In this document: in pieces, positions 745 through 24,449 of the stretch
How positions within the stretch are numbered: position 1 is the stretch's first letter
Layout: each line of letters opens with the position of its first letter
Origin: Microbacterium yannicii PS01
Lineage (GTDB): Bacteria > Actinomycetota > Actinomycetes > Actinomycetales > Microbacteriaceae
NCBI RefSeq assembly: GCF_000304335.1
Contig: NZ_CAJF01000009.1
Span: forward strand, 62,001 to 126,000
Reading direction: 5' to 3'
DNA: 64,000 nt
Notes under the pieces: generated by a model
Databases searched by the model: none
Seen by the model: only the letters and a program-made list of their open reading frames with translations
Told to the model about the DNA's origin: nothing
Program-made: the position numbers and the translations under genes

Positions 745-761
745 GTTAATCTATACTGTAC
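745..761. promoter_or_regulatory. 17-bp operator-like site, copy 1
   Basis: GTTAATCTATACTGTAC lies between the divergent SDR and NTF2-like genes. It matches the pattern RTTnAnnnnTACTGWAC found at other promoters in this region. TATACT (752-757) inside it could serve as a -10 box for the rightward operon, so a bound repressor would block it. The functional role is inferred. Confidence 0.55.
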
Positions 762-795
762 ATGGGTCCGCTCGGACGATGTAGATGGGAAATGC

Positions 796-1386
796 ATGAA
801 CGACGAACGTGGCCAAGCGCGATCTTCGACGCTTGAGGATCTCATCGATAAGCAGGACATCCAAGAGGTGATCCTCCGGTACGTGCACGGCGTCGACCGG
901 CTCGACTGGGAGCTCGTGCGTGATTGCTACTGGCCCGATGCCGTAGATGACCACGGGGCATTTCGTGGCGACCCCGAGGGCTTCATTGAATGGGGTCGAT
1001 GCCTTAAGGCATCCACCGTCTCCACCACTCACCAGGTGAGCCCGTCTTTGATTGTTCTCGACGGCGACCACGCCCAGGTCGAGACGTACTGTCTCGCTTT
1101 TCACCGCCAGGAGATCGACAGAGGGGCGCGAGATGCCGTGATGGGTGTCCGGTACGCCGATCGGTTCGAACGCCGGGGCGGGCAGTGGCGCATTCTTGAG
1201 CGGACCGCCATTTGGGATTGGCTTCGGGTTGACGACGTCGCCGTCCCCGCCGACGAAGAGTGGTCCTTCGGTCCGGACCATGTCCGGGGGTCCCGCGGAG
1301 TTCACGACATGATCCACGCGCTCGCCATAAAGCTCCATGCCCACGCACCTTCCGCCGTTCTCGCCTCTGAGACTGGAGATGTATGA
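796..1386 (+). CDS. NTF2-like/SnoaL-fold protein
   Basis: This 196-residue protein carries a SnoaL_4-type NTF2-like domain over roughly residues 15-150. The N-terminal helix reads DKQDIQEVILRYVHGVD, followed by LDWELVRDCYWPDAV with the buried W/D pattern of small dehydratase/isomerase-like cone folds. Relatives include polyketide cyclases, steroid isomerases and aromatic dioxygenase small subunits, so a hydratase or isomerase role on a pathway intermediate is possible but cannot be fixed. The stop overlaps the start of the next gene by 4 nt (ATGTATGA), so the two are probably co-translated. An operator-like motif lies 35 nt upstream. Confidence 0.8.
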   Translation: MNDERGQARSSTLEDLIDKQDIQEVILRYVHGVDRLDWELVRDCYWPDAVDDHGAFRGDPEGFIEWGRCLKASTVSTTHQVSPSLIVLDGDHAQVETYCLAFHRQEIDRGARDAVMGVRYADRFERRGGQWRILERTAIWDWLRVDDVAVPADEEWSFGPDHVRGSRGVHDMIHALAIKLHAHAPSAVLASETGDV

Positions 1387-1934
1387 CCACCGCACTGGTT
1401 GTCAATCACGTCGGCATCTCGGTGCCAGACATAGTCGCCGCAATCGACTGGTACGAGAAACTCTTCGGCTTCCGGTGCATCATGGGCCCGCGGGTCATGA
1501 GGCCAAGCTCAGAGGCAACGGCGGAGACCCGGCAGATACTCGGCGACCGGTTCCGGGAGGCATGGCAGGCGCATCTTCTCACTGCAAACGGAGTCGGACT
1601 GGAGTTGTTCCAATTCATCGACCCCGTGGTCGAGCCGGGCACTGTCGACATCGAGTACTGGCGACAGGGGCTGTGGCATTTGTGTTTGACAGATCCTGAC
1701 GTCGCCGGAGCGGTCGCACGCATCGTCGAGGCTGGAGGTACCCAGGCGTCCCCGGTCACGCTGTTCGTTCCCGGCAAACCGTACACCCTGGTGTACTGCC
1801 GGGATCCATGGGGAACGACTCTCGAGATCATGTCGCACTCGTATACGGAAGTGTTTGCCTCCTGGCCCCAGCCGGGCATGGAACTAGAGACAGAATGGGC
1901 GACAGCCGACGCCGTCGGGCGGCCAGCGAAGTGA
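1383..1934 (+). CDS. VOC family (glyoxalase/dioxygenase-fold) protein
   Basis: This 183-residue protein has two beta-alpha-beta-beta-beta modules. It begins VNHVGISVPDIVAAIDWYEKLFGF, the classic VOC start with a metal-binding His, and ends with PWGTTLEIMSHS, where the C-terminal Glu ligand sits. The middle GLWHLCLTDPDVAGAVARI carries a second His. The metal-ligand set His/His/Glu looks intact, so a metal-dependent epimerase, lyase or isomerase is plausible. It overlaps the SnoaL-like gene by 4 nt. It converges with the PanE-like gene at 1967, with a 32-nt gap. A second VOC gene sits at 9488 in the same island. Confidence 0.85.
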   Translation: MTTALVVNHVGISVPDIVAAIDWYEKLFGFRCIMGPRVMRPSSEATAETRQILGDRFREAWQAHLLTANGVGLELFQFIDPVVEPGTVDIEYWRQGLWHLCLTDPDVAGAVARIVEAGGTQASPVTLFVPGKPYTLVYCRDPWGTTLEIMSHSYTEVFASWPQPGMELETEWATADAVGRPAK

Positions 1935-1966
1935 CGCGGTCTCGATCATGGCGGCCGAAACCACAC

Positions 1967-3001
1967 TTAAGAGTGAACGGCCAGGAGTAGCCTCACGTTG
2001 TCGGGATGCGGGTCGAGCTCGCCGGCGTCAATGCGACGGGCAATCGCTGCGGTGCGCTCGTTGGCGTCAGTACGGACTCCTACCCGCGCGGCTTCGCGTG
2101 CAACGTAGCCGTTGAGTTCATCGGCCTCCCCGCGGCGTCGCTTCTGCCAATCCTGCAGCACCGTGGTCTTAGTGTGCGGGAGCGACCATTTCGTGTAGAC
2201 GGCATCAAGTGTCTGCTCAACGAAGAGCTCAGGTTGCTCGGGATCGACATCCGTGAGCCCGAAGATCGGGACGATGCGGTGACCGGTGGCCAGCGCTGTA
2301 CGCACCGCCTCCTTGCCGGTCGTAAGCATGAAGTCATGCATGCCAGGTACCTTCGCGGCGTCAAGGAGGGGAAGATCGAGGATCGCCGACGTCACTAGCT
2401 CCGCGGCGTTGACGGTGAGCTTCATCCACTTTGCCGATCGAATATCGGTGACAGTCTCGGCCGTGCCGGCGTGGCTCAGCACCTCGGTCACCTCGCTCTC
2501 TCGCCCGACGGTCGCCGCGGTGAGGCTGCCGATCGCGAACCACGTCCCGCTCGCTGGAGTGTGACGCTCCACAACACCGGGGGTGAACATCGCGGCCGCG
2601 ATCTCAATCACGGCACCGAGCGTACGGTGCGGGCCAATGATCTCCGACATCGCGTCGACCGTCATACCGTTCTGCAGCCCGACCACGAGGGCGCCCTCGG
2701 CGAGGTAGGGCTTAATGAGTTCGCTCACCCAGCGCGTGTCGTACGCCTTCACCACGATGAACACGAGGTCGAACCTCTGCCCGCGCAGTTCCGCTACCTC
2801 GCAGAAATTGAGGATGCTGCCCGCCTGCGTCACCACGGTTTCACTGGGCGTCTGCACCACGATGCCGTCAGCACGCATAGCGGCGACATTGTCGGGCCAC
2901 TGCTCGATAAGGGTGACATCTTGTCCCGCTCGGAGAAGGTCGGCGGCGATCCCCGCGCCGTTGGCTCCCGTGCCAACCACGGCGATTCTGACGTCAGTCA
3001 T
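1967..3001 (-). CDS. Ketopantoate reductase family (PanE/ApbA) oxidoreductase, paralogue 1
   Basis: This 344-residue protein starts MTDVRIAVVGTGANGAGIAADL with the GxGxxG Rossmann motif, followed by the VVKAYDTRW nicotinamide-side lysine motif and VVGLQNGM. KWMKLTVNA is the site of the family catalytic Lys. The family reduces 2-oxo acids such as 2-ketopantoate with NADPH. The start at 3001 is chosen over a longer frame because AAAGGAG lies 7-8 nt upstream. Two close paralogues at 13763 and 24481 share the same signature segments, so the job is more likely catabolic than CoA biosynthesis. It is divergent from the gene at 3104, with two operator-like sites between. Confidence 0.88.
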   Translation of the reverse strand: MTDVRIAVVGTGANGAGIAADLLRAGQDVTLIEQWPDNVAAMRADGIVVQTPSETVVTQAGSILNFCEVAELRGQRFDLVFIVVKAYDTRWVSELIKPYLAEGALVVGLQNGMTVDAMSEIIGPHRTLGAVIEIAAAMFTPGVVERHTPASGTWFAIGSLTAATVGRESEVTEVLSHAGTAETVTDIRSAKWMKLTVNAAELVTSAILDLPLLDAAKVPGMHDFMLTTGKEAVRTALATGHRIVPIFGLTDVDPEQPELFVEQTLDAVYTKWSLPHTKTTVLQDWQKRRRGEADELNGYVAREAARVGVRTDANERTAAIARRIDAGELDPHPDNVRLLLAVHS

Positions 3002-3034
3002 GTCTCGACTCCTTTGATGGACGACTGTGCACAA

Positions 3035-3051
3035 GAACAGTACCAATGAAT
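3035..3051. promoter_or_regulatory. Operator-like site, copy 2 (weak)
   Basis: GAACAGTA-C-CAATGAAT reads as a degenerate copy of the ideal GTTCAGTA-N-TACTGAAC (6/8 plus 5/8). It lies 34 nt upstream of the leftward PanE-like start. The assignment rests on position and on the better copies elsewhere. Confidence 0.35.
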
Positions 3052-3058
3052 AGCCGAC

Positions 3059-3075
3059 GTACATATATGCTGAAC
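3059..3075. promoter_or_regulatory. Operator-like site, copy 3
   Basis: GTACATATATGCTGAAC matches the right half of the ideal palindrome at 7 of 8 positions (TGCTGAAC) and lies 28 nt upstream of the rightward gene at 3104. A -10-like CATATA (3062-3067) overlaps it. With copy 2 it covers both promoters of the divergent pair. Confidence 0.4.
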
Positions 3076-3103
3076 ATGCGCATCGCACCAAAGGAGTCGA
3101 CGT

Positions 3104-4039
3104 ATGCCGCACACAACCGATCGAGACCGACCATCCGTGGCGTGGGTCGGTGCGGGCCGGATGGGCACCGCGATGGCCTCGCGGCTGCTCGCCGCCGACG
3201 TGCGCGTCGCGGTGTGGAACCGCACTGCCGGAAGGCTCGACGCGCTGCGCGAGCGTGGCGCGACAGTGCTGCCAGCCTTAACGGATGCCGTGCACTCGGA
3301 TGTGGTCTGGTCAATGGTGATCGACGATACCGCCTTGATGGCTCTGGCCGATAAGAGGAGTGGCCTGTTTTCTGGCGAAAGCGGCGGAGGTACGACGCGG
3401 GTCTGGGTAGACAGTTCGACGGTGTCACCGAGCGCTGCAATAGTCGCGGCGGAAACAGCACGAAGCGCCGGCGTCGCGTACGTTTCAGCGCCGATCAGTG
3501 GCAATCCCGGTGTCGTGGAGCGCGGCGACGCGGTTTTCGCCACCTCGGGCGACGCGGCCGGCATCGACCTCGTGGAGCCCCTCGCGCGCCTCATCGGCCG
3601 CGACGTGCACCGCATGGGTGAGGGAACCACCGCCAACGTTGCGAAGCTGTCAGTCAACGCGCTTCTGTGCACGACGATGCAAACGCTAGCCGAAGTCGCC
3701 GTCCTGGCTGACAAGGCAGGATTATCGCGCGCCGCGCTTATGGACTTCATCAACGACAGCGCTGTCGGGTCCCTGTTCACCCGATATAAGACGGCTGCCG
3801 TCGTCGGCCTTGATCTCGGCGTCACGCTCTCCGCGGAAGGCCAGCGGAAAGACTTGACGCTCGTCCTGGACACTGCGGTTACGGAGCGCGTCCCAATGCC
3901 CGTGGTCGCCGAGACCGAACGTGCCTTCGCACGTCTCGTTCAAAGCGGCTTGGCCGACGGGCTCGACTATGCCGCACTCATCTTGCTCGCCGCGCGCGAC
4001 GCGGACCACACGCTCACACCGGAGGAGATCCGCTCATGA
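3104..4039 (+). CDS. NAD(P)-dependent beta-hydroxyacid dehydrogenase
   Basis: This 311-residue member of the 3-hydroxyisobutyrate/tartronate-semialdehyde reductase family starts with the cofactor motif VAWVGAGRMGTAMASRL (GxGxMG). The substrate-site segment VDSSTVSPSAA follows, then YVSAPISGNPGVVERGDAVF. GTTANVAKLSVNALL contains the catalytic Lys of the family. AAAGGAG at 3090-3096 supports the start. Its stop overlaps the alcohol dehydrogenase start by 4 nt (ATGA). It probably oxidises a 3-hydroxyacid or reduces a semialdehyde formed in this pathway. A second, more typical family member is encoded at 6511. Confidence 0.88.
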   Translation: MPHTTDRDRPSVAWVGAGRMGTAMASRLLAADVRVAVWNRTAGRLDALRERGATVLPALTDAVHSDVVWSMVIDDTALMALADKRSGLFSGESGGGTTRVWVDSSTVSPSAAIVAAETARSAGVAYVSAPISGNPGVVERGDAVFATSGDAAGIDLVEPLARLIGRDVHRMGEGTTANVAKLSVNALLCTTMQTLAEVAVLADKAGLSRAALMDFINDSAVGSLFTRYKTAAVVGLDLGVTLSAEGQRKDLTLVLDTAVTERVPMPVVAETERAFARLVQSGLADGLDYAALILLAARDADHTLTPEEIRS

Positions 4040-5166
4040 CCGCCAGCACCGTACTGCCCGATACCATGCGGGCGGCCGTCTACCACGGCCAGCACGACAT
4101 CCGCTTCGAAGAACTTCCAGTGCCCCATCCCGCGGCTGGGGAACTACTCCTGGCAGTGGGGACGGCCGGCGTCTGCGGATCCGACGTCGCCGAATGGGCA
4201 TACGGTCCGCACCAGCACGCGTTTGATGCGCCGCATCCCGCAACTGGCTGGATCGGCCCGATCACACCCGGACACGAATTTTCGGGCACCGTCGTTGCCG
4301 TCGGCGAGGGTGTAGACGCCGAGACCTGGCTTGGCACGACGGTCGCCTCCTGCGGTTCAGTCGCATGCGGCGCGTGCGACCCGTGCCTGCGCGGCCAGTC
4401 CAATCAGTGCGCGCATTACAACGGCGTTGGCCTTCATCGTCCTGGGGCTCTTGCCGAGTTCGTGACAACACCCATCGAAAACTGTCTGCGGGTTAACGAA
4501 CTGGGTTTGTCGCTCGACGAAGCGGCCCTGTGCCAGCCGATGTCGATCGCCGTGCACACCACGTCGCGCGCGGGCGGAGTGGACGGGCAAACCGTCGTCG
4601 TGCAGGGCGTCGGTGGCATCGGAGCGTTCCTCGTCTACGCCCTGGTCGAAAGTGGCGCCGATGTCGTGGCCACCGATCGCGACGCCGAGCGGCTCCAGAT
4701 TGCCCGGGAGCTCGGCGCCCGCGCGACGGTGCACGTCTCCGGCAGCGCCGACGATCTCGTGATGATCCGCGAGGCGGTCGGAGAAAACGAGCTGCGCGTA
4801 ATCTTCGAAGTCAGCGGGTCGCGTCCCGGAATCGAGTCGGCGCTGGCACTTGCTCCACGAGGGTGCCGCATCGTGCTGGTCGGCATCCAGAAGGCGCCAG
4901 TATCAATTGACCTTGCGTCGATCACGCTCGAAGAGCGTCAACTCATCGGCACCAACGCGCTGGTGCGGGAGATCGACTTCCCGCGCGCGGTAGAACTAAT
5001 CGCGCGTCGGCGCGGTCGCTGGGCTGTGCTCGCCCCGCGTGTACTGCCCCTTGACCAGGTCGTTGAGGGTGCGCTCCGCCCGATGAGCGAGGGGCGGGCG
5101 CCGGCCATCAAGACCCTTATCGACCCTCGCGGTACCGACGTGCGGCCAATCGCCTCGCTCGCGTAA
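4036..5166 (+). CDS. Zinc-dependent medium-chain alcohol dehydrogenase
   Basis: This 376-residue MDR protein has VCGSD (catalytic Zn Cys) and GHEFSGTVVAVGEGVD (catalytic His-Glu). CGACDPCLRGQSNQC supplies the four-Cys structural zinc site. VQGVGGIGAFLVY is the Rossmann GxGxxG. The N-terminal GroES-like half is followed by the NAD-binding half near residue 175. The layout is closest to sorbitol/threonine/2,3-butanediol dehydrogenases, which oxidise secondary alcohols. GGAGGAG 8 nt upstream, inside the preceding gene, supports the start. It is co-transcribed with the reductase upstream and probably with the M24 gene 29 nt downstream. The substrate is unknown. Confidence 0.9.
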   Translation: MTASTVLPDTMRAAVYHGQHDIRFEELPVPHPAAGELLLAVGTAGVCGSDVAEWAYGPHQHAFDAPHPATGWIGPITPGHEFSGTVVAVGEGVDAETWLGTTVASCGSVACGACDPCLRGQSNQCAHYNGVGLHRPGALAEFVTTPIENCLRVNELGLSLDEAALCQPMSIAVHTTSRAGGVDGQTVVVQGVGGIGAFLVYALVESGADVVATDRDAERLQIARELGARATVHVSGSADDLVMIREAVGENELRVIFEVSGSRPGIESALALAPRGCRIVLVGIQKAPVSIDLASITLEERQLIGTNALVREIDFPRAVELIARRRGRWAVLAPRVLPLDQVVEGALRPMSEGRAPAIKTLIDPRGTDVRPIASLA

Positions 5167-5195
5167 GTACACGGACCCACTCGGAAGGAACACTG

Positions 5196-6452
5196 ATGAA
5201 CTCTTCGCTCCCCGCACGTCCGATTCCAGCTCCGGGTCACTCAGCCGTCGATTACGAGCATCGAGTGGATTTCGACCGTCTGCGCGCGTACCGATTGTCG
5301 CGAGCTGTCGAAGCCCTCGAGAACGGCGAATGCGGTGCGTTCCTACTTTTCGACCAGTACAACATTCGCTACGTCACGCAGACCTGGATTGGCGGGGCCC
5401 TTCCCGACAAGATGATCCGCTATGCACTGCTCATGCGCGGACGACCGCCTATCCTGTGGGATTTCGGTTCGGCCGTGCGCCACCACCAGCTGAACTCGGA
5501 CTGGATGCCTGACGAGAACCACCGTCCGGGATTTCTCGGCTTCCGAGGAGCGGTGTCACCGGAGCCGACCGGTCTCATGAGCACGGCGATCGCCGAAATC
5601 GCCTCGCTTCTGCGCGCGGAAGGATTAGAGGATGCTCCCGTCGGCGTCGACATAGTCGAGCCACCCTTCCTCTTCGAGATGCAACGGCAGGGTTTGCGCG
5701 TCGCCGACGCGCAGCAGTCGATGCTCGACGCCCGCGTGATCAAGTCGCACGACGAGATCGTTCTCTTGAATCAAGCCGCGGCGATGGTCGACGGCGTCTA
5801 CCAGGACATCGCCGAGGCGCTCAAGCCTGGCGTACGTGAGAATGAGATCGTCGCGCTGGCGAACAAACGGCTGTACGAGTTGGGATCGGATCAGGTCGAG
5901 GCGGTCAACGCGATCTCTGGCGAACGGTGCAACCCGCATCCGCACAACTTCACCGACCGCATCATCCGCCCGGGCGACCAAGCATTCTTCGACGTCATTC
6001 ACTCCTACAACGGCTATCGCACCTGCTACTACCGCACATTCGGGGTCGGGAGCGCTACGACGAGTCAGCGCGACGCTTACAAGCGGGCGCGCGAGTGGAT
6101 GGACCGTGCGATCGACGCGATCGGTGTGGGTGTGGGTACCGATCAGGTGGCGTCGGTGCTGCCGACGGCGGCCGACATCGGCTTTGAAAGCGAGCTGGCG
6201 GCGTTCGGTCTACAGTTCGCTCACGGTCTGGGGCTAGGCCTGCACGAACGCCCGATCATCTCTCGGCTGAACTCCATGAGCGATCCCGTGGAACTGCGGG
6301 CCGGCATGGTATTCGCCATGGAAACCTACTGCCCAGCGACCGATGGCGTTTCCGCCGCCCGCATCGAGGAGGAGCTCGTCGTGACCGACCGCGGTGTCGA
6401 AGTGCTGACAAAGTTTCCTGCCCAGGAACTGTTCGTCGCGAACGAGTACTGA
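5196..6452 (+). CDS. M24 (pita-bread) family protein, paralogue 1, one metal ligand replaced
   Basis: This 418-residue protein has a creatinase-like N-terminal domain (about 1-180) and a pita-bread C-terminal domain. The metal-ligand positions of aminopeptidase P/prolidase are traceable: Asp266, then Cys277 exactly 11 residues later where the second Asp should be, His343 in AHGLGLGLHE, Glu376 in FAMETYC and Glu391 in ARIEEE. The Asp-to-Cys change also occurs in the paralogue at 16435. M24 relatives include Xaa-Pro peptidases, metal-free creatinase and the DMSP lyase DddP, so hydrolysis of a small amide or lyase chemistry is as likely as peptidase activity. GGAAGGA lies 7 nt upstream. Confidence 0.82.
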   Translation: MNSSLPARPIPAPGHSAVDYEHRVDFDRLRAYRLSRAVEALENGECGAFLLFDQYNIRYVTQTWIGGALPDKMIRYALLMRGRPPILWDFGSAVRHHQLNSDWMPDENHRPGFLGFRGAVSPEPTGLMSTAIAEIASLLRAEGLEDAPVGVDIVEPPFLFEMQRQGLRVADAQQSMLDARVIKSHDEIVLLNQAAAMVDGVYQDIAEALKPGVRENEIVALANKRLYELGSDQVEAVNAISGERCNPHPHNFTDRIIRPGDQAFFDVIHSYNGYRTCYYRTFGVGSATTSQRDAYKRAREWMDRAIDAIGVGVGTDQVASVLPTAADIGFESELAAFGLQFAHGLGLGLHERPIISRLNSMSDPVELRAGMVFAMETYCPATDGVSAARIEEELVVTDRGVEVLTKFPAQELFVANEY

Positions 6453-6457
6453 ACGAC

Positions 6458-6500
6458 GGAAAGGCCCGGCGAGCTCCTCGTGAACTCGACGAGCCTTTCC
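6458..6500. terminator. Bidirectional terminator-like stem-loop
   Basis: GGAAAGGC (6458-6465) pairs with GCCTTTCC (6493-6500), and a GC-rich interior can pair further. It sits between the convergent M24 gene and the beta-hydroxyacid dehydrogenase gene, where a terminator for both is expected. Confidence 0.6.
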
Positions 6501-6510
6501 ATCTAGGGTG

Positions 6511-7371
6511 TCAGCCGCGTCGCACGATCTCGGCGATTGCCGCCCAGTCGCTCTCGGCGAGCTGCGGGTCGGCCAATGCGGCTTCGAACATGTGGCGGAG
6601 TGCGGGTGCCGTCGGCAATGCGGCATCCACCTCCCTTGCGGCACGTTCTGCAAGACCGAGATCTTTGAATCCCAACCGCATTCCGAACAGCGGCGGGTAG
6701 TCGCGCCGCGCAATCGAGTCGCCGTAGCCCGAGTAAACGACACCGCCGAAAAGCGTGCTTGTAAGCAGATCGACGAACTCGGCACCCTCAATGCCGTGTC
6801 GTTCGACGAGATTGACCGACTCGCCCAGTGCCTGTAACGCGTGGATGATGTTGTAGTTGACCGCGATTTTGGCGACGTTGGCCGTGCGGGGCCGCGTCCC
6901 GAACCGCCAGATCTGTGCGCCCATGAGCTCGAGGTACGGTGAGACCTCCTCGACCACCTCATCGTCGCCGGCCGCGAGGATATTCAGTTTGCCGGCGGCC
7001 GCGACCTGCGGTCGGCCGATGACAGGAGCGGCGACGTAAGCGACGTCGGCGGCGGCGTGTAGAGCGGCGAGTCGGTCCGCGGCTTCGGGGCTTACCGACG
7101 CCATGTTGACATGGCGACCGCCGGCGGCTGTCGCCACCGTGTCGGGTGACAGGATCTGCTCGGCGACCTCATCATTGGCCAACATCGAGAAGCTCGTTCC
7201 AGTCGCCAGGGCGTCGCGGGGCTCGTCGGCTGCGATCGCTCCGTCCGCCACGAGCGCGTCGACCGCCGGGCGAGATCTGTTCCAGACGACGACTTCATGG
7301 CCGCCGTCGATGAGTCGCCGCGCCATGGCGGCTCCCATCGTGCCGAGCCCCAGGAACCCGATACGCGCCAT
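6511..7371 (-). CDS. NAD(P)-dependent oxidoreductase, 3-hydroxyisobutyrate dehydrogenase family
   Basis: This 286-residue protein opens with MARIGFLGLGTMGAAMARRL, the family cofactor motif. It continues with HVNMASVSPEAADRLAAL, VAAPVIGRPQVAAAGKLNI and TANVAKIAVNYNIIHALQALGE, which holds the catalytic Lys. It resembles GarR/HIBADH-type enzymes that interconvert a semialdehyde and a hydroxyacid. It is the last gene of a four-gene leftward operon (VOC, GntR, aldehyde dehydrogenase, this gene), starting 3 nt after the aldehyde dehydrogenase stop. Pairing with that enzyme suggests both act on one semialdehyde intermediate. Confidence 0.9.
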   Translation of the reverse strand: MARIGFLGLGTMGAAMARRLIDGGHEVVVWNRSRPAVDALVADGAIAADEPRDALATGTSFSMLANDEVAEQILSPDTVATAAGGRHVNMASVSPEAADRLAALHAAADVAYVAAPVIGRPQVAAAGKLNILAAGDDEVVEEVSPYLELMGAQIWRFGTRPRTANVAKIAVNYNIIHALQALGESVNLVERHGIEGAEFVDLLTSTLFGGVVYSGYGDSIARRDYPPLFGMRLGFKDLGLAERAAREVDAALPTAPALRHMFEAALADPQLAESDWAAIAEIVRRG

Positions 7372-7374
7372 CGC

Positions 7375-9485: not shown

Positions 9486-9487
9486 TG

Positions 9488-14845: not shown

Positions 14846-14861
14846 TCAAGGACGAGGTCTC

Positions 14862-16292: not shown

Positions 16293-16348
16293 AGTTCAGT
16301 CACAGTGTTGAGATAGTCAGCTACTCGGCAAAACGTTCACTATGACGC

Positions 16349-16380: not shown

Positions 16381-16434
16381 AGACAGCTGATCTTCGGAGA
16401 AGCACAACGAAGTGATCCACGAGGGAGGCCCCGC

Positions 16435-17826
16435 ATGGCGATTGCGACCCATGGCTCGATGAATGTCGACTGGGAGACCCGAATCGACATGGACCGGCTC
16501 CGCGAGGAGCGACTCGCGCGTCTCCGCAGGCAACTGGAGATATCCGAAGCCGGGGCGCTGCTGGCCTTCGATTTCGGAAACATCCGGTACATGACGGCGA
16601 CCCATATTGGCACGTGGGCGATGGATAAGCTGATCCGCTTCTCGCTGATCACGCGAAACTCCGATCCGATCTCCTGGGACTTCGGCTCGGCCGCCCGGCA
16701 CCATCAACTGCGCAACCCATGGCTCGGTACGACTCACATGGACGCCGATGCCGATCCTCACGCCCCGCACCACGACGCGGTGCGCCCGCGAACTGAGCAC
16801 GGCGCGAGGGCTGGTATCTCGCTGCTTCGCGGCGCGTTCCACCCCGAGGCGGGTATCGCCCGATCGGTCGCACAAAAGATCCGGCGTGAACTTGACCGAT
16901 TCGGCTTGACGAACGAACCGCTGGCCGTCGATGTCATCGAGCTGCCTGTGCTCTTCGCGCTGCAAGAAGCTGGCATCCGCGTGATTGATGGACAGCAGAT
17001 CTTCCTCGAGGCGCGGCGCGTGAAGACTGTCGACGAGATCTCGCTGCTCACTCAAGCGGCGGCAATGGTGGATGCCGCATACGAAGACCTCTACGAGTTC
17101 CTCCGTCCCGGAGTACGCGAGAACGAGGCCGTCGGCCTCGTGTCCAAGAAGCTCTATGACCTCGGCTCGGAGTACGTCGAGGGCGTCAACGCCATCTCGG
17201 GCGAGCGTTGTGCGCCGCACCCGCACGTGTACTCCGACCGCCTCATCCGCCCGGGTGATCCCGCATTCTTCGACATCCTGCACAGCTACAACGGTTACCG
17301 CACCTGCTACTACCGAACATTTGGGGTCGGTTCTGCGAGCCGTGCTCAACGCGACGCCTATGTGAAGGCCCGAGAGATCATGGATCGCTCCATCGCCATG
17401 GTGCGCCCCGGCATCACGACCGCCGACGTGGTCCGCGAGTGGCCGAAGGCGCAGGAGTTCGGTTTCCCCGACGAAGAAGCGGCCTTCGCACTCCAGTACG
17501 GTCACGGCGTCGGTCTGTCGATTTGGGAGAAGCCGATTTTCTCGAGACTGGTCTCACTCGAGCATCCCGAGACCATTGAAGAGGGAATGGTCTTCGCCCT
17601 GGAGACCTACTGGCCTTCGGCCGACGGCCTCGGCGCGGCGCGCATCGAGGAGGAGCTCGTAGTAACCGCCGACGGGTGTGAAGTGATCACGAAGTTCCCC
17701 GCCGAAGAGCTGATGGTTGCGGGCGGCCGGCGGTATTTCACCGTGGACGGTCCGATGAACCTGCTGCGCGACTCGCAATCGCACCTGAACTCGTCCATTG
17801 GGCGTGGAGAGGTGCCGGCGAGCTAA
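16435..17826 (+). CDS. M24 (pita-bread) family protein, paralogue 2, one metal ligand replaced
   Basis: This 463-residue homologue of the 5196 product shares the long block around FFDILHSYNGYRTCYYRTF. Asp280 is followed 11 residues later by Cys291 instead of Asp. The other ligand segments are kept: YGHGVGLSIWEKP (His, although the usual second HE is WE), FALETYW and ARIEEEL. An insertion near residues 95-115 (DADADPHAPHHDAVRP) is rich in His and Asp and absent from the other copy. SD GGGAGG lies near the start. The gene begins a probable operon with the ABC importer. Amide hydrolysis or lyase activity on the imported substrate is possible, but identity is open. Confidence 0.82.
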   Translation: MAIATHGSMNVDWETRIDMDRLREERLARLRRQLEISEAGALLAFDFGNIRYMTATHIGTWAMDKLIRFSLITRNSDPISWDFGSAARHHQLRNPWLGTTHMDADADPHAPHHDAVRPRTEHGARAGISLLRGAFHPEAGIARSVAQKIRRELDRFGLTNEPLAVDVIELPVLFALQEAGIRVIDGQQIFLEARRVKTVDEISLLTQAAAMVDAAYEDLYEFLRPGVRENEAVGLVSKKLYDLGSEYVEGVNAISGERCAPHPHVYSDRLIRPGDPAFFDILHSYNGYRTCYYRTFGVGSASRAQRDAYVKAREIMDRSIAMVRPGITTADVVREWPKAQEFGFPDEEAAFALQYGHGVGLSIWEKPIFSRLVSLEHPETIEEGMVFALETYWPSADGLGAARIEEELVVTADGCEVITKFPAEELMVAGGRRYFTVDGPMNLLRDSQSHLNSSIGRGEVPAS

Positions 17827-17905
17827 GACGTCCCGCCCGCACTGGGAGGGAGAATCCGTGGGCCGAGGGCTCGCGACTTTTCAACGATGAGGAGTAAGAG
17901 GCGAC

Positions 17906-19072
17906 ATGTTCCAATCACCTGGGGTCGAGCGCACCGCACGCGCCGCCGTACTCATGGCTGCGGCCGCGCTCGTCCTATCGGCGTGTTCGTCGATCGGGGA
18001 CTCTGCCGGCGGCGAAGACAGTGGCCCGGCGGTAGACACCGCAATGCTGGAGGCCGGCTATGCGGGCGCGTTCGACGCACCCCCAAGCGATGGCCCTGCG
18101 GCTCAGCCCGACAAGTCCGTCTGGTACATCTCGTGCGGCCAGTCCTACGCGGCGTGCGCGGGCGCCGCAGAATCGTTTGCCGAGGCTGGCGACGCTCTAG
18201 GGTGGAACGTCACCATCCAGGACGGCAAGGCAGATCCAAACACTGCGGCGAGCATCATCCGACAGGGCGTGGCCGCCGGAGTTGACGGCATCGGGCTTTT
18301 CACCTATGACTGCCCCGCGATCAAGAGCGCGCTACTTGAGGCGCGTGACGCTGGCGTACCGGTGGTGAACTTCGGGTCGCTCGACTGCGACGACGAAGCG
18401 TTCGGCAGCGAAGAGCCGCTCTTCGCGGCGAGCGTGAACGAGCAGGGCTCCACCGACCAGGCGGACCTCTGGAAGGTGCTAGGCGAAGCCCGCGCGACGT
18501 ACTCGGTCGCCTCGCTCGGCGGGGAGCCCGGAAAAATCATCAACATCTGGGAGACCAGCCAGCGCGCGCACCAGTGGCAGCAAGTCGGCTTCACTGAGGC
18601 CATGGATGAGCTCTGCCCTGAGTGTGAGGTCGTGAATGTTGAATTCACCTTCGCGCAGGTGCCGAACCGTTCTAGCGAGATTTTCAAGGCTGCTCTCGCG
18701 CAGAACCCCGACGTAGGTGTAGTCACGTGGGACACCGACGCCCTCATGGGCCTCGGACTCAGCACTGTCCTGCAGCAGGCCGGCCTCGATCCGAACGTCG
18801 CGCTAGTGGGCGCCGAAGGTAACCCGCCCAACATGGAACACATCAGGAAGGGCGAACAGACTTCTTCGTCGTTCATTCCCTACAGCTGGTACCAGTGGGC
18901 AATGGCCGACACATTCAACCGCATCTTCGCAGGCGAGGACCCTGCCTCCCTCCCCAGCCAGGGCGGTGGATACATGTTCATCGATGCCGAGAACAACCTC
19001 CCTGAGGAAGGCGAGCCGGTCGAACTTCCGATCGACTATAAGGCCGCTTACACCGAGGTTTGGAACGGCTGA
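17906..19072 (+). CDS. Sugar-type ABC transporter substrate-binding lipoprotein
   Basis: This 388-residue protein has a lipoprotein signal peptide, RAAVLMAAAALVLSAC, with cleavage before Cys27 of the LSAC lipobox. The mature part is a periplasmic-binding-protein type I fold (RbsB-like): SVWYISCGQSYAACAGAAESFAEAGDALGWNV, then GVAAGVDGIGLF and AGVPVVNFG. A segment with several cysteines (SCGQSYAAC, TYDC, LDC, CPEC) could form disulfides outside the cell. It should deliver the island substrate to the ATPase and permease encoded next. The class handles sugars, nucleosides and autoinducer-like molecules. Confidence 0.9.
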   Translation: MFQSPGVERTARAAVLMAAAALVLSACSSIGDSAGGEDSGPAVDTAMLEAGYAGAFDAPPSDGPAAQPDKSVWYISCGQSYAACAGAAESFAEAGDALGWNVTIQDGKADPNTAASIIRQGVAAGVDGIGLFTYDCPAIKSALLEARDAGVPVVNFGSLDCDDEAFGSEEPLFAASVNEQGSTDQADLWKVLGEARATYSVASLGGEPGKIINIWETSQRAHQWQQVGFTEAMDELCPECEVVNVEFTFAQVPNRSSEIFKAALAQNPDVGVVTWDTDALMGLGLSTVLQQAGLDPNVALVGAEGNPPNMEHIRKGEQTSSSFIPYSWYQWAMADTFNRIFAGEDPASLPSQGGGYMFIDAENNLPEEGEPVELPIDYKAAYTEVWNG

Positions 19073-19104
19073 CCAGCCGTCCGACATCCGAGATCGAGGA
19101 ACTC

Positions 19105-20691
19105 ATGAACAGTCCAGCGCTTCCCGCTGACGTCGAGCGCGCCGAAAGGATAACCTCCTCCGGTCCCGCTCTACGCATCGACCGAGTATCGAAGACGTTC
19201 GGCGTCTCGAAAGCGCTGGACGACGTTTCCTTCGAGGTAGGGCATGGTGAGATCCACGCCCTCCTCGGAGGAAACGGCTCCGGGAAGTCCACGCTCATCA
19301 AGATCCTTGCGGGCGTGTATCGCGGCGATGAGGACGGCGGCGCGCTCGAGTTCGACGGCACCAGGGTCGAAGCGCACTCCATGACACCAGCGATCGCTCG
19401 AGACAATCGCCTTCGCTTTGTACATCAGAACCCGGGTCTGTTTCAGGATCTTACCGTCGCGGACAACGTAGCGATGCGCAGCGGATACCCCACCAGAATC
19501 GGGGCGATTCGCAAGCGTGCTTTGCACCGCCACGTCGCCGCGCTTCTTGATGCGTTCGAGATCGACGCCAAGCCGGGCGACGTGCTGGGCGACCTGCGCC
19601 CGGCCGATCAGACCATGATTGCGATAGCGCGCGCCCTCGAACGTAGCGACGGCGAGCCACCATCGCTGCTTGTGCTCGACGAGCCGACCGCGTCGCTTCC
19701 CCAAGGCGAGGTCGACGTATTGTTGGCGGCTCTGCGCCGCCGTGCGCACGCCGGCCAGGGCATCATCTACGTGAGCCATCGCATCGACGAGGTGATGTCG
19801 ATCTCCGACACCGTCACCGTGCTGCGCGACGGCGAACACATCGTCACGCGACGGGCCGAAGGCCTCACCGAGGCGAGCCTCACCGAGTACATCGCGGGGC
19901 GCTCAATCGAGCGCCTATTCGGCGAGCGTCCCGACGAGACTTCCGCGCGCGGCGCGACAGTGCTCACGGTTCGCGAGTTGGCAGGCGGTCCGCTCGCTAA
20001 CGTCTCGTTCGATCTTCATGAGGGCGAAATCCTCGGAGTGGCCGGTCTCCTCGGTAGTGGCCGCACGGAGCTCCTTCGCATGATCTTCGGCGCCATGCGC
20101 GCCGAGCGCGGGGAAATAAGGCTCCGGGATGCTCTCGTGGTCGGTGGACTCGACCCGCGCCCCGCCATGCGCCAGGGGATCGCTTACGTGCCTGAGGATC
20201 GGGCCCTCGACGCCTCCTTTCCTGACCTCGACGTAGAGACCAACCTCTCGATGGCTCAGGTTGGCAAGTACCTCCGTGGCGTCTTCATGTCTACGAAGGC
20301 AGAGCGCCGCGACGCGCTCGCCTCAATCGACGGCTTCGGCATCAAACCCCGCTCGACGAGCGCCGTATTCTCGACGCTGTCCGGCGGCAACCAGCAGAAG
20401 GTCGTGGTCGCCCGATGGCTGCGACGCAACCCGGCTGTCCTGCTTCTGGACGAACCAACACAGGGCGTCGACGTCGGCGCTCGGGCGGACATTTATAGCG
20501 CCATCCGGTCGGCCACCGCGCAAGGCATGGCCGTCATCCTGGTCAGTTCCGACTTCGAAGAGCTCGCACACGCATGCGACCGGGTGATCGTCATCCGCGA
20601 CGGGGCTATCACCGCCGAAGTGCTCGAGCACCGTCTCGATCGCGAAATCCTCACTTATCTGACGTACAGCGGCAAGGAGAACGAGTCGTGA
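19105..20691 (+). CDS. Sugar-type ABC transporter ATP-binding protein (RbsA-like, two ABC domains)
   Basis: This 528-residue tandem ATPase has a first domain with LLGGNGSGKSTL (Walker A) and VLDEPTASL (Walker B). Its signature is weak (DLRPADQ), as is usual in RbsA-type first halves. The second domain has VAGLLGSGRTELL, LSGGNQQKVVVARWL and LLLDEPTQGVDVGAR. An in-frame TTG at 19060 would overlap the upstream gene; ATG 19105 with GAGGA four to five nt upstream is preferred. The stop overlaps the permease GTG (GTGA). It powers import together with the binding protein and the single permease. Confidence 0.9.
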   Translation: MNSPALPADVERAERITSSGPALRIDRVSKTFGVSKALDDVSFEVGHGEIHALLGGNGSGKSTLIKILAGVYRGDEDGGALEFDGTRVEAHSMTPAIARDNRLRFVHQNPGLFQDLTVADNVAMRSGYPTRIGAIRKRALHRHVAALLDAFEIDAKPGDVLGDLRPADQTMIAIARALERSDGEPPSLLVLDEPTASLPQGEVDVLLAALRRRAHAGQGIIYVSHRIDEVMSISDTVTVLRDGEHIVTRRAEGLTEASLTEYIAGRSIERLFGERPDETSARGATVLTVRELAGGPLANVSFDLHEGEILGVAGLLGSGRTELLRMIFGAMRAERGEIRLRDALVVGGLDPRPAMRQGIAYVPEDRALDASFPDLDVETNLSMAQVGKYLRGVFMSTKAERRDALASIDGFGIKPRSTSAVFSTLSGGNQQKVVVARWLRRNPAVLLLDEPTQGVDVGARADIYSAIRSATAQGMAVILVSSDFEELAHACDRVIVIRDGAITAEVLEHRLDREILTYLTYSGKENES

Positions 20692-21746
20692 CCAGCACCC
20701 AGAACGTACCCCCGCAGAGTTCGGCCGAAGTGGTAGCCAACTCGGCCTCGTCAGCCGCTCGATCTCACAGCACACGCGGTTCCGGCGGCGGGCTGCTCGA
20801 GCGCTATGGCCTCATCGGCATCTTCATTGCTGTGGCAATCGTCTTCGCCGTGCTGAGGCCCGAAACCTTCGCCCAGTACACGAATTTTCGGAGCCTCTCA
20901 ATCTCGTACTCCGTCCTCGCCATCGCGGCGTTGGCACTGATCGTGCCGCTCGTCGCAGGCAGATTCGACATCTCAGTCGGTGCAAACATCGGAATGAGTT
21001 CGATCGTGGCGGCATCTGCGATGTCAAGATTCGACCTGCCACTCTGGGTCGCGGTCCTGGCCGGGATCGCCACCGGTGCCCTCGTGGGCGTGATCAATGG
21101 CGTGCTCGTGGCCTATCTCGGCGTAAACGCGATCATCGGCACGCTCGGAGTCAGCATCATCCTGCAAGGACTTATGAGCGCATACACCGGCGGCATCCCA
21201 ATTAGCTCCGGTCTAGACCCGGCGTTGACCAACCTCAGCGTCTCGCTCATCGCTGGGATTCCCACGCTCTTCATCATCATGATATTGGTCGCCGTGATCA
21301 CATGGTTTCTGCTGCGCCAAACCCCTTACGGCCGCTACCTCGAGGCCGTCGGATCAAATCTCGCGGCCGCCCGACTTACCGGCATCCCAGCCAAACGCAT
21401 CGTCTTTCTGAGCTTCGTAATCGCCGGCTCACTCGCCGGCGTGGCCGGAGTGCTGCAGATCGGCGCGCAGGGCAACGCGGATGCGGCGACAGGCACAATC
21501 AACTTCATCCTGCCGGCGCTGGCCGCCGCGTTCCTCGGCGCAACCACCTGGCGCCCCGGTACGTACAACGTCGGTGGCACGATCATCGCACTGTACTTCC
21601 TCGCGATGGTCGTCAATGGTCTCTCGCTTCTAGGCGTACGCCCTTGGGTTACCGACGTCTTCAACGGCGCGGCTGTCATCGTTGCAATTGTCGTCTCGGC
21701 GCAGCTGCGACGACGTCGCACCGGCAGCATCGAGATCGGACAGTAG
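20688..21746 (+). CDS. Sugar-type ABC transporter permease (RbsC family)
   Basis: About 352 residues from a GTG that overlaps the ATPase stop. After a polar N-terminus of about 45 residues there are 8-10 hydrophobic segments, including GIFIAVAIVFAVL, LAIAALALIVPLVAG and FLSFVIAGSLAGVAGVLQIG. The BPD_transp_2 signature GRFDISVGANIGMSS is followed by NAIIGTLGVSIILQG. Only one permease gene is present, so it probably acts as a homodimer. The next gene, an amidohydrolase, begins 33 nt downstream, linking import directly to hydrolysis. Confidence 0.9.
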   Translation: MTSTQNVPPQSSAEVVANSASSAARSHSTRGSGGGLLERYGLIGIFIAVAIVFAVLRPETFAQYTNFRSLSISYSVLAIAALALIVPLVAGRFDISVGANIGMSSIVAASAMSRFDLPLWVAVLAGIATGALVGVINGVLVAYLGVNAIIGTLGVSIILQGLMSAYTGGIPISSGLDPALTNLSVSLIAGIPTLFIIMILVAVITWFLLRQTPYGRYLEAVGSNLAAARLTGIPAKRIVFLSFVIAGSLAGVAGVLQIGAQGNADAATGTINFILPALAAAFLGATTWRPGTYNVGGTIIALYFLAMVVNGLSLLGVRPWVTDVFNGAAVIVAIVVSAQLRRRRTGSIEIGQ

Positions 21747-21779
21747 TAGTGGCCACGACCGCCCTGACCGGAGACCCTG

Positions 21780-23198
21780 ATGTCTGACTATCTTGGAAAC
21801 GAGCGGATCTTGATCCGCGGCGGCACCATCATTTCGGTCGATGAGGCCGTCGGTGACCTCCCGCGCGGTGACGTCCTCATCGATGGCGGCATGATCGTGG
21901 CGATCGGAGTGAACCTTCCTGACGAGGGCGCCCGCGTCATCGACGCGGACAACCATTACGTCCTCCCTGGATTCGTCGACACGCACCGGCACACGTGGCA
22001 GTCGGTGCTGCGCAACGTCGCCTCCGACTGGTCCCTCGGCCAATACTTCCAGGGCATGCACTTCGGCATGTCGTCACTATTCCGGCCCGAGGACACCTAT
22101 ATCGGCAACCTGCTCGGCCGCACCGAGGCGCTCGACGGTGGCATCACCACGATGCTCGATTGGTCGCACAACATGGCGACCCCAGAGCATGCTGATGCGG
22201 CCGTGGCGGGTCTGCTTGACGCCCCCGGACGCTCGGTGTTCGCGCACGGCGGTGGGGCGCCGCAGTGGCAGGTTCCCAGCGGTGTACCGCATCCGCGTGA
22301 CGTGCTTCGCCTGCAGGAGCAATACTTTTCCTCCGAGAACCAACTCGTCACGCTACAGTTCGCCGCGCGCGGTCCTCAATACACGACCCCGGAGATCGCT
22401 GAGTCTGATTGGGAGTTGGCCCGCGAGGTCGGCACGCGCATCACGGTTCACGTCGGCGATGGTGCATGGGGCAAGAATCGCCACGTTGTGTGGATGCACG
22501 ACCGGGGGATGACCGGCCCGGACGTCACCTACGTGCACTGCAACATGATCGACGATGAGGAGTTTCGCATCATCGCCGACACCGGCGGAAGCGCGTCGGT
22601 CGCTGCCGACATCGAGACTCAGATGGGTCATGGATGGCCGGCCACCGGGCGACTGCTGGATGTCGGAGTGCGACCTTCCCTGTCGATCGACGTGTGCTCA
22701 TCCAACGGTGGAGACATGTTCCACGCGATGAAGACCACGATCAGCACCCAGCGCGCGCTCGACAACGCAGCCCTCGAGCGCAATGGGCTTTCGGCCACGG
22801 ATGCAGCCGGACTGCGGGTCAGCTGCCGCGACGTAATCGAGTTTGCCACGCTCCGTGGAGCGATCGCGAATGGCGTCGATGACAAGGTCGGGTCCCTCAC
22901 GGTCGGTAAGCAAGCCGACATCATCCTGATTCGCGCGAGCGACCTGTCGATGTTCCCGCACAACAATCCGTATGGACAGATCGTCTATAACGCACACGCC
23001 GGCATGGTGGACACGATCCTTATCGCCGGTCGCGTGGTGAAGGAGGAAGGCCGGCTTATCGGGACCGACGTCGGGCGAATCAAACAGCTCGCGCAGGAGA
23101 CCAACGACTATTTGTTCGCCGAGGCGGCGAACAAGGACTTGATCCGCGACGCGTCGCGAGATGGGCACTGGCACCCGCGGCCGGTTGTGGCCTCATGA
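21780..23198 (+). CDS. Amidohydrolase family protein (TRZ/ATZ-like), paralogue 2
   Basis: This 472-residue relative of the 14862 product keeps the metal and catalytic segments: VDTHRHTWQSVLRN, RITVHVGDG, VTYVHCNMIDDEE and LSIDVCSSNGGDMF. The mid-region is clearly diverged from paralogue 1 (for example GGGAPQWQVPSGVPHP), so the two likely act on related but different intermediates. The family deaminates or dehalogenates heterocycles or opens cyclic amides. It is positioned after the ABC permease and overlaps the alpha/beta hydrolase start by 4 nt (ATGA), so hydrolysis in two steps by these two enzymes is plausible. Confidence 0.87.
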   Translation: MSDYLGNERILIRGGTIISVDEAVGDLPRGDVLIDGGMIVAIGVNLPDEGARVIDADNHYVLPGFVDTHRHTWQSVLRNVASDWSLGQYFQGMHFGMSSLFRPEDTYIGNLLGRTEALDGGITTMLDWSHNMATPEHADAAVAGLLDAPGRSVFAHGGGAPQWQVPSGVPHPRDVLRLQEQYFSSENQLVTLQFAARGPQYTTPEIAESDWELAREVGTRITVHVGDGAWGKNRHVVWMHDRGMTGPDVTYVHCNMIDDEEFRIIADTGGSASVAADIETQMGHGWPATGRLLDVGVRPSLSIDVCSSNGGDMFHAMKTTISTQRALDNAALERNGLSATDAAGLRVSCRDVIEFATLRGAIANGVDDKVGSLTVGKQADIILIRASDLSMFPHNNPYGQIVYNAHAGMVDTILIAGRVVKEEGRLIGTDVGRIKQLAQETNDYLFAEAANKDLIRDASRDGHWHPRPVVAS

Positions 23199-24148
23199 GC
23201 GCGGCGGTCCCGAGGACCTTTGTTGTCCACACTGCCGATGCAGCGCTCGAGGTGACCGAGTGGGGGGCTGGGGACCTCGTCATGCTGGTGTCAGGATGGC
23301 CGCAAACCCAATACGCATGGCGGAAGCTAGTACCGCTCCTGGTCGATGCAGCGCACCGCGTCGTCGTGGTCGAACCCAGGGGCCTGGGCCGCAGTACCAC
23401 CCAGCATCTGCCCGCCGACCTGTCGCCCGCGATCGACGACCTTCTCATCGTTGCGCAGCGCTTCACGTCAGATCCCTTCCACCTGGTCGGCCATGACATT
23501 GGAGCCTGGCTCGCACACGGCCTTGCGGCTCGCGAACCTGCCGCGGTGCGCTCACTCGTGCTGGTAGATGCTGGTATCCCGGGCCTCACGCCCCCACCTA
23601 GCGGCAACCTCGACGAGGGTGCGAACGCCCGGAGTTGGCACTTCGGCTTTAACCGACTGCCCGACCTCCCCGAGCTGCTACTCGCCGGGCGCGAGCGCAG
23701 CTTCCTCGATTGGCTGCTGCGCAGCAAGAGCGCCGACCACGCATGGATCACCGACGAGGTGGTGGAGGAATACGCCGAGGCGCTAGCCGCTCCCGGTGCG
23801 GTCACAGCCGGGATGGACTACTACCGCGCCGTATTCTCTGCACTCGGACAACGCGCCGCAGCTATAAGGGGAGCCCGCTCCATCAACGTGCCGACGCATG
23901 TTGTCTCAGGCCGACGTGGTGTCGCCGAAACTCTGCAGCGCGCCCTCGAAAATCGGTCCGCGCGACTCTCAGGAGTCGTACTGGAAGACTGCGGACACTA
24001 TGTCGCGGAGGAGCGCCCGGAAGCACTTTTCCGTGAGATGCTCTCCTTCTGGCGTCGCCTGGATGACGCTCGCGCACCCGAGTCAGATCTCGTAATCGAC
24101 CACCGCTCGATCTCGCACCACCGTGTTGACGATCTCGACTGCGGCTAG
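23195..24148 (+). CDS. Alpha/beta hydrolase
   Basis: This 317-residue alpha/beta-fold protein has an oxyanion-hole region SGWPQTQYAWRKLVP and nucleophile elbow GHDIGAWLAHGL, giving an Asp nucleophile at the usual Ser position. CGHYVAEERPEAL carries the catalytic His. An Asp nucleophile is typical of epoxide hydrolases and haloalkane/fluoroacetate dehalogenases rather than esterases. The cap domain lies around residues 140-220. It starts on the stop codon of the amidohydrolase and is the last gene of the transport operon. Its 3' end overlaps the convergent Dabb gene by 66 nt. Confidence 0.87.
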   Translation: MSAAVPRTFVVHTADAALEVTEWGAGDLVMLVSGWPQTQYAWRKLVPLLVDAAHRVVVVEPRGLGRSTTQHLPADLSPAIDDLLIVAQRFTSDPFHLVGHDIGAWLAHGLAAREPAAVRSLVLVDAGIPGLTPPPSGNLDEGANARSWHFGFNRLPDLPELLLAGRERSFLDWLLRSKSADHAWITDEVVEEYAEALAAPGAVTAGMDYYRAVFSALGQRAAAIRGARSINVPTHVVSGRRGVAETLQRALENRSARLSGVVLEDCGHYVAEERPEALFREMLSFWRRLDDARAPESDLVIDHRSISHHRVDDLDCG

Positions 24149-24382
24149 GTGAGCAGGATGCTGCTGATATTCGGCCAGCGCATCCCACGATGTGTGCTCC
24201 GACACGAGTGCGGCGTCCCAATGCGCGGCGACCAGCTTGGGGTCGCCGTCTACCCGCAGAGAATTCACGCCTGGCACGATCCCGCCGACCGGCGTCAAGG
24301 TCTCCACGATCTTTGCGACTGCGGCCCGGCGGGCCTCCTCGTCGTCAATGCCGACAGAGAAAAGGACGATGTGGCGGATCAT
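24083..24382 (-). CDS. Dabb (stress-responsive A/B barrel) family protein
   Basis: This 99-residue protein begins MIRHIVLFSVGIDDEEARRAAVAKIVETL and has the central GVNSLRVDGDPKLVA and SEHTSWDALAEYQQHPAHLAAV segments of Dabb-domain proteins. These are ferredoxin-like dimers found as small cyclases, isomerases or decarboxylases in catabolic clusters. ATG 24382 is supported by AAAGGAGCGAC directly upstream. It is divergent from the PanE-like gene at 24481 across an operator-like site and converges with the hydrolase gene. Confidence 0.85.
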   Translation of the reverse strand: MIRHIVLFSVGIDDEEARRAAVAKIVETLTPVGGIVPGVNSLRVDGDPKLVAAHWDAALVSEHTSWDALAEYQQHPAHLAAVEIVNTVVRDRAVVDYEI

Positions 24383-24432
24383 GTCGCTCCTTTCGTTCGA
24401 GGACGTGATGCCAAGGAGCATCGAACGCCGAT

Positions 24433-24449
24433 GTTTAGTACTACTGTAC
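24433..24449. promoter_or_regulatory. Operator-like site, copy 7
   Basis: GTTTAGTACTACTGTAC matches the 10151 site at 13 of 17 positions and lies between the divergent Dabb and PanE-like genes. It also contains GTAC-TACT-GTAC. It is the rightmost copy of the motif that I found in the island. Confidence 0.55.

Follow-up and report, generated by a model that had tools for sequence, protein, structure and literature searches.

A predicted palindromic operator of a catabolic gene cluster in Microbacterium yannicii PS01 and its probable reader, a putative XRE-cupin repressor

Which regulator reads the 17-bp palindrome that recurs in the promoters of a catabolic gene cluster of Microbacterium yannicii PS01? 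The cluster fills positions 1-27000 of the window analysed here, a stretch of 64,000 nucleotides (C9:62001-126000) within the 3.95 Mb genome. An earlier note on this DNA listed seven copies of the ideal GTTCAGTA-N-TACTGAAC and linked them to the FCD-type GntR regulator encoded at 8742. The comparison of genomes points to another protein, with a probability of about 0.85: the motif would be the operator of an autoregulated repressor with an XRE-type DNA-binding domain and a cupin domain (XRE-cupin, gene at 25580) that controls the cluster. The GntR protein would act separately, between the genes of a VOC family protein and the E1 component of a 2-oxoacid dehydrogenase-type complex, through a pair of TGGATCCA-type sites. 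The regulator named in the earlier note is very probably the wrong one.

The sites, their restriction to the locus and the association of each motif with each regulator across genomes were computed directly. All seven 17-mers are present, in six intergenic regions rather than at the seven promoters first counted, since the copies at 3035 and 3059 share one gap. The fit to the ideal is close for 10151 (one mismatch), 16364 and 24433 (two each), and poorer for the other four, which have four (14829) or five mismatches (745, 3035 and 3059). At up to three mismatches the window holds three matches against 0.06 expected, a number reached in none of 100 shuffles; at up to two, the same three places are the only ones in the whole genome, all within this cluster. 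Chance thus falls far short of explaining the strong sites, which are confined strictly to this locus. A fourth genomic match, at three mismatches and the sole one outside the cluster (C20:70536), overlaps open frames, scores 4.8 with the motif learned from relatives and was rejected as an operator. At five mismatches there are nine places in the window, three of them being 745, 3035 and 3059, so that the ideal by itself lends these three no significance; all three are located in promoters. The tally is three strong sites, two supported ones (745 and 14829), two marginal ones (3035 and 3059) and one unlisted before (16294). The number of secure sites had thus been overstated, and the idea of a shared palindromic operator marking a catabolic regulon local to the cluster finds support, as a prediction, in the genome scan and in motifs learned from relatives. 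The sites are given below with their ranks among the 63,984 window positions under those motifs, which are described after the list.

10151-10167, no strand assigned: predicted operator O1, ATTCAGTAATACTGAAC, between the divergent VOC-GntR-aldehyde dehydrogenase (minus) and E1-E2 (plus) genes; rank 2 (main), 1 (strict).
16364-16380, plus strand: predicted operator O2, GTTCATTTATACTGAAC, upstream of the M24b gene, containing TATACT; rank 1 (main), 2 (strict).
24433-24449, no strand assigned: predicted operator O3, GTTTAGTACTACTGTAC, between the Dabb gene (minus) and ApbA3-XRE-cupin 1-XRE-cupin 2 (plus), a likely autoregulatory site; rank 3 with both 17-bp motifs, 11 with the 15-bp motif.
745-761, no strand assigned: predicted weaker operator between the SDR (minus) and SnoaL_4 (plus) genes; ranks 4, 3 and 5 (main, intermediate and strict 17-bp), 84 (15-bp).
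14829-14845, plus strand: predicted weaker operator upstream of amidohydrolase 1; ranks 6 (main) and 7 (strict) at 17 bp, 20 (19-bp), 27 (15-bp).
16294-16310, plus strand: weaker operator-like site GTTCAGTCACAGTGTTG in the M24b promoter, shared with 16364; score 11.9, rank 7 (main), 6 (strict).
3035-3051, no strand assigned: marginal site in the divergent gap between ApbA1 and a 3-hydroxyisobutyrate dehydrogenase-like gene (HIBADH); rank 8 (main), 12 (strict).
3059-3075, no strand assigned: marginal site, not secure, in the same gap; rank 12 (main), 49 (strict).

The 10151 copy is indeed a near-perfect palindrome (7 of 8 pairs match). Upstream of amidohydrolase 1, the region 14778-14845 carries further half-sites GTGCAC/GTGAAC besides 14829. 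By eye, an inverted repeat, TCGACTCCTTTG (3004-3017) ... CAAAGGAGTCGA (3090-3103), flanks the 3035 and 3059 sites and makes up the ribosome-binding regions of both divergent genes, ApbA1 and HIBADH.

Relatives of XRE-cupin 1 come from nine other genomes in a class sample of 394 (10 including the own genome) and six others in an order sample of 396 (seven including the own), and those of the GntR protein from eight loci and 24 other genomes of the class sample (25 including the own; E<=1e-30). Stretches of up to 20 kb were read around the best match of each genome, with a few further loci added; L and G numbers are our handles for loci and genomes. The main 17-bp motif, GTTCAGTgncACTGAAC, was learned by palindromic expectation maximisation (EM) on 14 upstream regions of XRE-cupin or M24b genes in relatives, the window being left out. 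It ranks 16364, 10151, 24433 and 745 first to fourth, all seven claimed sites fall into its top 12, and the seven sites that score at least 11 in 1-27000 are all promoter-located by the gene starts used. The strict motif, GTtcAGTGnCACTgaAC, comes from 11 regions in eight genomes without a close GntR (G208, G348, G057, G040, G090, G174, G134 and G722), and at 19 bp it again puts the three strong sites in ranks 1-3. An intermediate set of 14 regions includes four from G672/G681 (L097, L098), whose GntR lies outside the stretch read; six 17-bp motifs learned from letter-shuffled versions of this set rank the seven sites between 433 and 63,195. The EM log-likelihood was 71 at 16 bp, 75 at 18 bp, 105 at 17 bp and 140 at 19 bp. 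The 19-bp run, the highest, returns the same palindrome plus one base per side, and the 16- and 18-bp runs, with different alignments and lower scores, were set aside. L071, L086 and the loci L067, L075 and L078, whose XRE-cupins form a second clade, were left out of the XRE-cupin upstream sets. L106 and L107 stand outside all counts, as they were chosen after their XRE-cupins had been seen; their sites score up to 16.3 and 17.2.

Across genomes the motif accompanies the XRE-cupin. Among 13 XRE-cupin genomes checked for the GntR regulator, eight have a best FCD match of at most 39% identity, with E no better than 4.9e-26, and G643 is likewise low (29%); G672, G681, G747 and G539 have the GntR. 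The loci L080-L084, with no GntR in the stretch read, have GTTCAGTGACACTTGAC-like palindromes between the XRE-cupin and M24 genes. A matrix built from the window sites only gives a mean best score of 10.6 in 17 XRE-cupin upstream regions against 1.5 in shuffles (standard deviation 0.76; maximum of 300, 4.3), and no signal in 20 GntR-side E1 upstream regions (4.2 against 4.8 in shuffles, standard deviation 0.69); the two groups differ at p=0.002 (Mann-Whitney). The six held-out XRE-cupin loci, L097-L102 (119 kb), hold 14 sites scoring at least 11, 10 of them at least 13. In L102 two sites precede an ApbA-XRE-cupin pair (with one XRE-cupin), which matches the arrangement at 24433, and in L099 sites lie upstream of ApbA, of amidohydrolase 2, of the ATP-binding cassette (ABC) transporter stretch and of M24b.

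The two XRE-cupin genes lie at the end of the cluster and were absent from the earlier note.

25580-26356, plus strand: XRE-cupin regulator 1 (P0002), the proposed motif-binding repressor; HTH_3 51.8 bits (cut-off 23), Cupin_2 53.4 bits (cut-off 27.2).
26365-26985, plus strand: XRE-cupin regulator 2 (in P0003), from another clade; matches to Pfam HTH_3 and Cupin_2 exceed the cut-offs.

The 25580 protein has an N-terminal XRE/Cro helix-turn-helix and a C-terminal cupin (Pfam), and a palindromic site, a putative operator by its sequence, lies near its own gene and near neighbouring metabolic genes. It groups with the L026 protein (support 99/97). Its helix SPSLLSQVETGKIQPSV, which we take to be the recognition helix, is nearly identical in most motif-bearing relatives.

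The regulator at 8742 has a winged helix of the GntR type and an FCD domain, and its relatives suggest an operator of its own.

8742-9515, minus strand: FCD-type GntR protein, proposed to regulate the E1/VOC gap locally; GntR 65.8 bits (cut-off 27), FCD 80.6 bits (cut-off 24.3).
10068-10079, no strand assigned: predicted degenerate GntR operator copy 1, ATTGTAGCCAAA; score 11.9, 63 bp from copy 2.
10131-10142, no strand assigned: predicted degenerate GntR operator copy 2, ATTGGACGCAAT; two mismatches to ATTGGATCCAAT, with 0.92 such window matches expected by chance.

In GntR loci the VOC-GntR pair divergent from E1-E2 is widely conserved, and many of them carry one or two copies of the palindrome ATTGGATCCAAT upstream of E1. 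Palindromic EM on 19 E1-upstream regions without an XRE-cupin in the stretch read gave atTGGATCCAat. L024, a near-duplicate of L023, was dropped from this set; L088-L090 (GntR 38-40% identical, E1 not beside GntR) were left out of the E1-upstream analyses; in L065 and L087, which have no VOC match beside E1, the region is simply that upstream of E1. A ATTGGATCCAAT-like site scoring at least 15 occurs in 16 of the 19 regions. The three misses are proteobacterial (L022, L023 and L025) and score only 3.7-8.3 with the motif that they helped to learn; the loci L022-L025 (Shinella, Brucella, Rhizobiales) keep the VOC-GntR/E1-E2 arrangement and have no ATTGGATCCAAT-like site in the stretch read. Outside the learning set, 10 of 12 regions score at least 16 (L020, L026, L061, L067, L071, L075, L078, L099, L103 and L104), the misses being L063 and L102 as cut. 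Paired sites are 62-64 bp apart in 8 of 14 pairs (62 in L020 and L067, 63 in L059, L103 and L104, 64 in L071, L075 and L078) and otherwise 52 (L060, L066), 73 (L062), 74 (L026), 75 (L061) or 108 bp (L065); some second copies are weak. The spacing of the two window copies is thus also seen in relatives. As 0.92 chance matches are expected, what speaks for the 10131 copy is its position and spacing. The window protein and its relatives, down to about 45% identity, have the helix core SR(V/L/I)PVR in common, and the GntR is therefore not expected to have altered its specificity in this genome. The GntR protein would act at the E1/VOC gap via its own VanO-like operator. Both motifs stand upstream of E1 in L026 and L104, each with an XRE-cupin, as they do in the window.

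That the 8742 GntR itself reads the 17-bp motif and governs every one of the promoters is suggested by the layout of the locus, where its gene follows the VOC gene divergent from E1 at the best palindrome (10151), and by the centres GTAATAC and GTACTAC of two sites (10151 and 24433), which fit a GT-N3-AC core. The argument from this core fails because the other five sites lack it, and the relatives make the whole proposal very improbable. Of 14 GntR-bearing genomes tested for the XRE-cupin (E<=1e-15), six have a match and eight, the clean subset, have none. In these eight, all within the GntR learning set, the exact 8-mer TGGATCCA stands upstream of E1 in 8/8 and, in a scan of the same regions, the 17-bp motif (score at least 11) in 0/8. 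Among the GntR proteins found, the one nearest to the 8742 protein (G681/L103, 71-72% identical) has two TGGATCCA-like sites at a spacing of 63 bp in its E1-upstream region, where the 17-bp motif is missing (best 4.3). In genomes that lack a close GntR, the 17-bp motif is found next to XRE-cupin genes.

A reader close at hand is XRE-cupin 2, alone or in a mixed dimer with XRE-cupin 1, as the two are adjacent, have the same domain build and would share an operon. This is unlikely, though less so than the GntR proposal, since XRE-cupin 2 groups with the proteins of L067, L075 and L078 (support 100/99) and differs in its helix (SPSHVSQVERG, present also in L067/L075), and in the stretches read around these genes no site scores above 11.6 (L067 9.1, L075 11.6, L078 8.2, the upstream side of the L078 gene lying outside its stretch). 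XRE-cupin 1 is favoured as the motif binder on these sequence comparisons. The copies could also resemble one another merely as promoters do, through a -10 box TATACT and its surroundings, and TATACT is indeed present within the motif at 752 and 16371. Against this, the palindrome recurs in other genomes without TATACT, as in GTTCAGTGACACTTGAC, and only three places in the 3.95 Mb carry it at up to two mismatches, unlike a general promoter element; we regard a shared promoter sequence as the least probable account, close to negligible. A sigma-70 scan of 1-17000 gave two matches, 7146 and 10124-10152, against 2.4 expected in shuffles, with none reported at 752 or 16371; the match at 10124-10152 overlaps the 10151 site by 2 bp.

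Several results weigh against an XRE-cupin 1 operator. The strict motif at 15 bp ranks the strong sites 1, 2 and 11 (24433) and places 745, 14829, 3035 and 3059 at 84, 27, 32 and 731. Five of the 17 XRE-cupin regions (L079, L097, L098, L101 and L102), when scored with the window matrix, fall below 6.5, the 95% level of random stretches; L079 has its site before M24b instead, L097, L098 and L102 have sites elsewhere in the cluster, and L101 has a single weak site just under 13. L061 is weak as well (10.5 with the main motif). The strong window sites centre on TA-N-TA (or TT-A-TA), those of the relatives mostly on TG-N-CA. In 27001-64000 two sites score at least 11 (47017, 12.5; 51710, 11.2), both inside open frames, and these indicate the noise level. 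In 23 loci first taken as XRE-free (380 kb), 21 sites score at least 11 and 12 at least 13, so that the difference in site density from the held-out XRE-cupin loci is modest. Some of these loci belong to genomes with an XRE-cupin match elsewhere (6 of 14 tested), and 17 of the 21 sites lie in five A+T-richer loci (L023, L024, L025, L076 and L090). The eight clean loci (110 kb) have two sites of at least 11; L062 (14.4) and L065 (12.0), from genomes without an XRE-cupin match, have one each. Confidence in the XRE-cupin operator is slightly lower because of the 15-bp result and the A+T-rich control loci.

For the XRE-cupin operator, physical binding, dimerisation, repression, operon structure, release by a ligand and the choice between the two XRE-cupins are what we infer in the following model. 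A dimer of XRE-cupin 1 would occupy (T)GTTCAGTA-N-TACTGAAC(A) palindromes in the cluster promoters and would keep the genes of the M24 enzyme, the transporter, the amidohydrolase, E1/E2 and the reductase off; its own operon, ApbA3-XRE1-XRE2, would be repressed through 24433. The substrate or an early product may then bind the cupin domain, upon which the XRE-cupin would let go of the DNA. The FCD GntR would separately control the E1/VOC promoter through its TGGATCCA-type operator pair. The overlap with TATACT at 16364 and 745 and, in relatives, with TTGACA (a -35-like hexamer by eye, into which the M24b-upstream site runs in L079-L082) fits occlusion and repression. By analogy with the XRE-cupins of Pseudomonas, a block of the promoters until a metabolite binds the cupin is most likely.

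In NCBIfam both XRE-cupins match PuuR of Escherichia coli (NF007408) best, but their 70.5 and 71.0 bits are far below its cut-off of 211 bits, so they do not count as PuuR members. A PuuR site presumably resembles ATAATGAACA, for which no confirmation was found in the literature searched. The XRE-cupins characterised in Pseudomonas are reported to repress locally from palindromes close to the regulator genes, some of them with autoregulation (PMC7901475). The proteins of P. aeruginosa (PsdR, PauR, ErfA and others) share with those described here the XRE-type helix-turn-helix joined to a cupin, the palindromic operators, the position beside enzyme or transporter genes and mostly local regulons, and are reported to inhibit transcription (PMC7901475; PMC10965056). 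The palindrome that PsdR is reported to read, TTAAG-N5-CTTAA, differs from the one found here (PMC7901475; PMC10965056), and the present case also differs in its actinobacterial cluster, its sites in six intergenic regions and its two tandem XRE-cupins. Literature searches with motif strings and for XRE-cupin operators gave no description of the palindrome in the text of the matches listed. The regulon is new but belongs to a known class. On the GntR side, VanR of Caulobacter is presumably a GntR-family protein. The VanR operator half ATTGGATCCAAT, as cited in PMC7970624, equals the atTGGATCCAat learned here; this likeness to the VanO-type operator concerns the 8742 GntR, not the 17-bp motif, and the window copies are degenerate.

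By its Pfam matches the cluster encodes SDR, SnoaL_4 and VOC proteins, three ApbA-type reductases, two 3-hydroxyisobutyrate dehydrogenase-like proteins, a zinc alcohol dehydrogenase, two M24 proteins, an aldehyde dehydrogenase (barely over the cut-off of the succinic semialdehyde dehydrogenase model, 732 against 730 bits), the FCD GntR, a second VOC protein, a fused E1, E2, two amidohydrolases, a sugar-type ABC transporter, an alpha/beta hydrolase and a Dabb protein, besides the two XRE-cupins.

10199-13740, plus strand: E1 (fused alpha/beta) and E2 of a 2-oxoacid dehydrogenase-type complex (Pfam).
16435-23198, plus strand: M24 family protein, sugar-type ABC transporter (substrate-binding protein, ATPase, permease) and amidohydrolase 2 (Pfam).

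A literature search on this enzyme combination found no paper. The cluster looks accessory: the 11 other genomes of the genus listed in the class-sample search have no GntR match at E<=1e-30, two further ones, G672 and G681, have the GntR, and XRE-cupin 1 has a match in 3 of the 17 other genomes of the genus listed in the order-sample search, one of them only 34% identical. It is adjoined at 27270-31181 by a set resembling a cyclic-oligonucleotide-based anti-phage signalling system (CBASS), with SAVED (minus), an SMODS nucleotidyltransferase (plus) and a Prok-E2_A and ThiF protein (plus). An HTH_17 protein, a PIN-like protein (below the Pfam cut-off) and a TrwC relaxase/AAA protein at 31243-36357 suggest a mobile element beside the cluster. 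Farther on, a GntR regulator with a UTRA domain (46943-47704, minus) adjoins a pfkB kinase gene (plus, 47899), and the motif match at 47017 lies inside the regulator gene.

The locus yields operator predictions for two regulators, one for a clade of XRE-cupins in actinobacteria and one for the second regulator in the widespread VOC-GntR-E1-E2 module, so that these two inputs into one cluster can be tested separately. The assignment of the regulator is corrected, in a case where the plausible regulator gene lying nearest is probably not the right one and the matter is decided by comparing genomes. A bolder and more doubtful view, which we put forward tentatively, is that of a transferable actinobacterial module with two regulators and unrelated operators, in which the XRE-cupin would silence the whole cluster (TGTTCAGT-N3-ACTGAACA-type sites), while control by a VanR-like GntR (paired TGGATCCA) would be limited to the thiamine-diphosphate-dependent dehydrogenase step. 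The strong 10151 site in the GntR gap, together with the decayed GntR sites, may then reflect a takeover of this promoter by another regulator.

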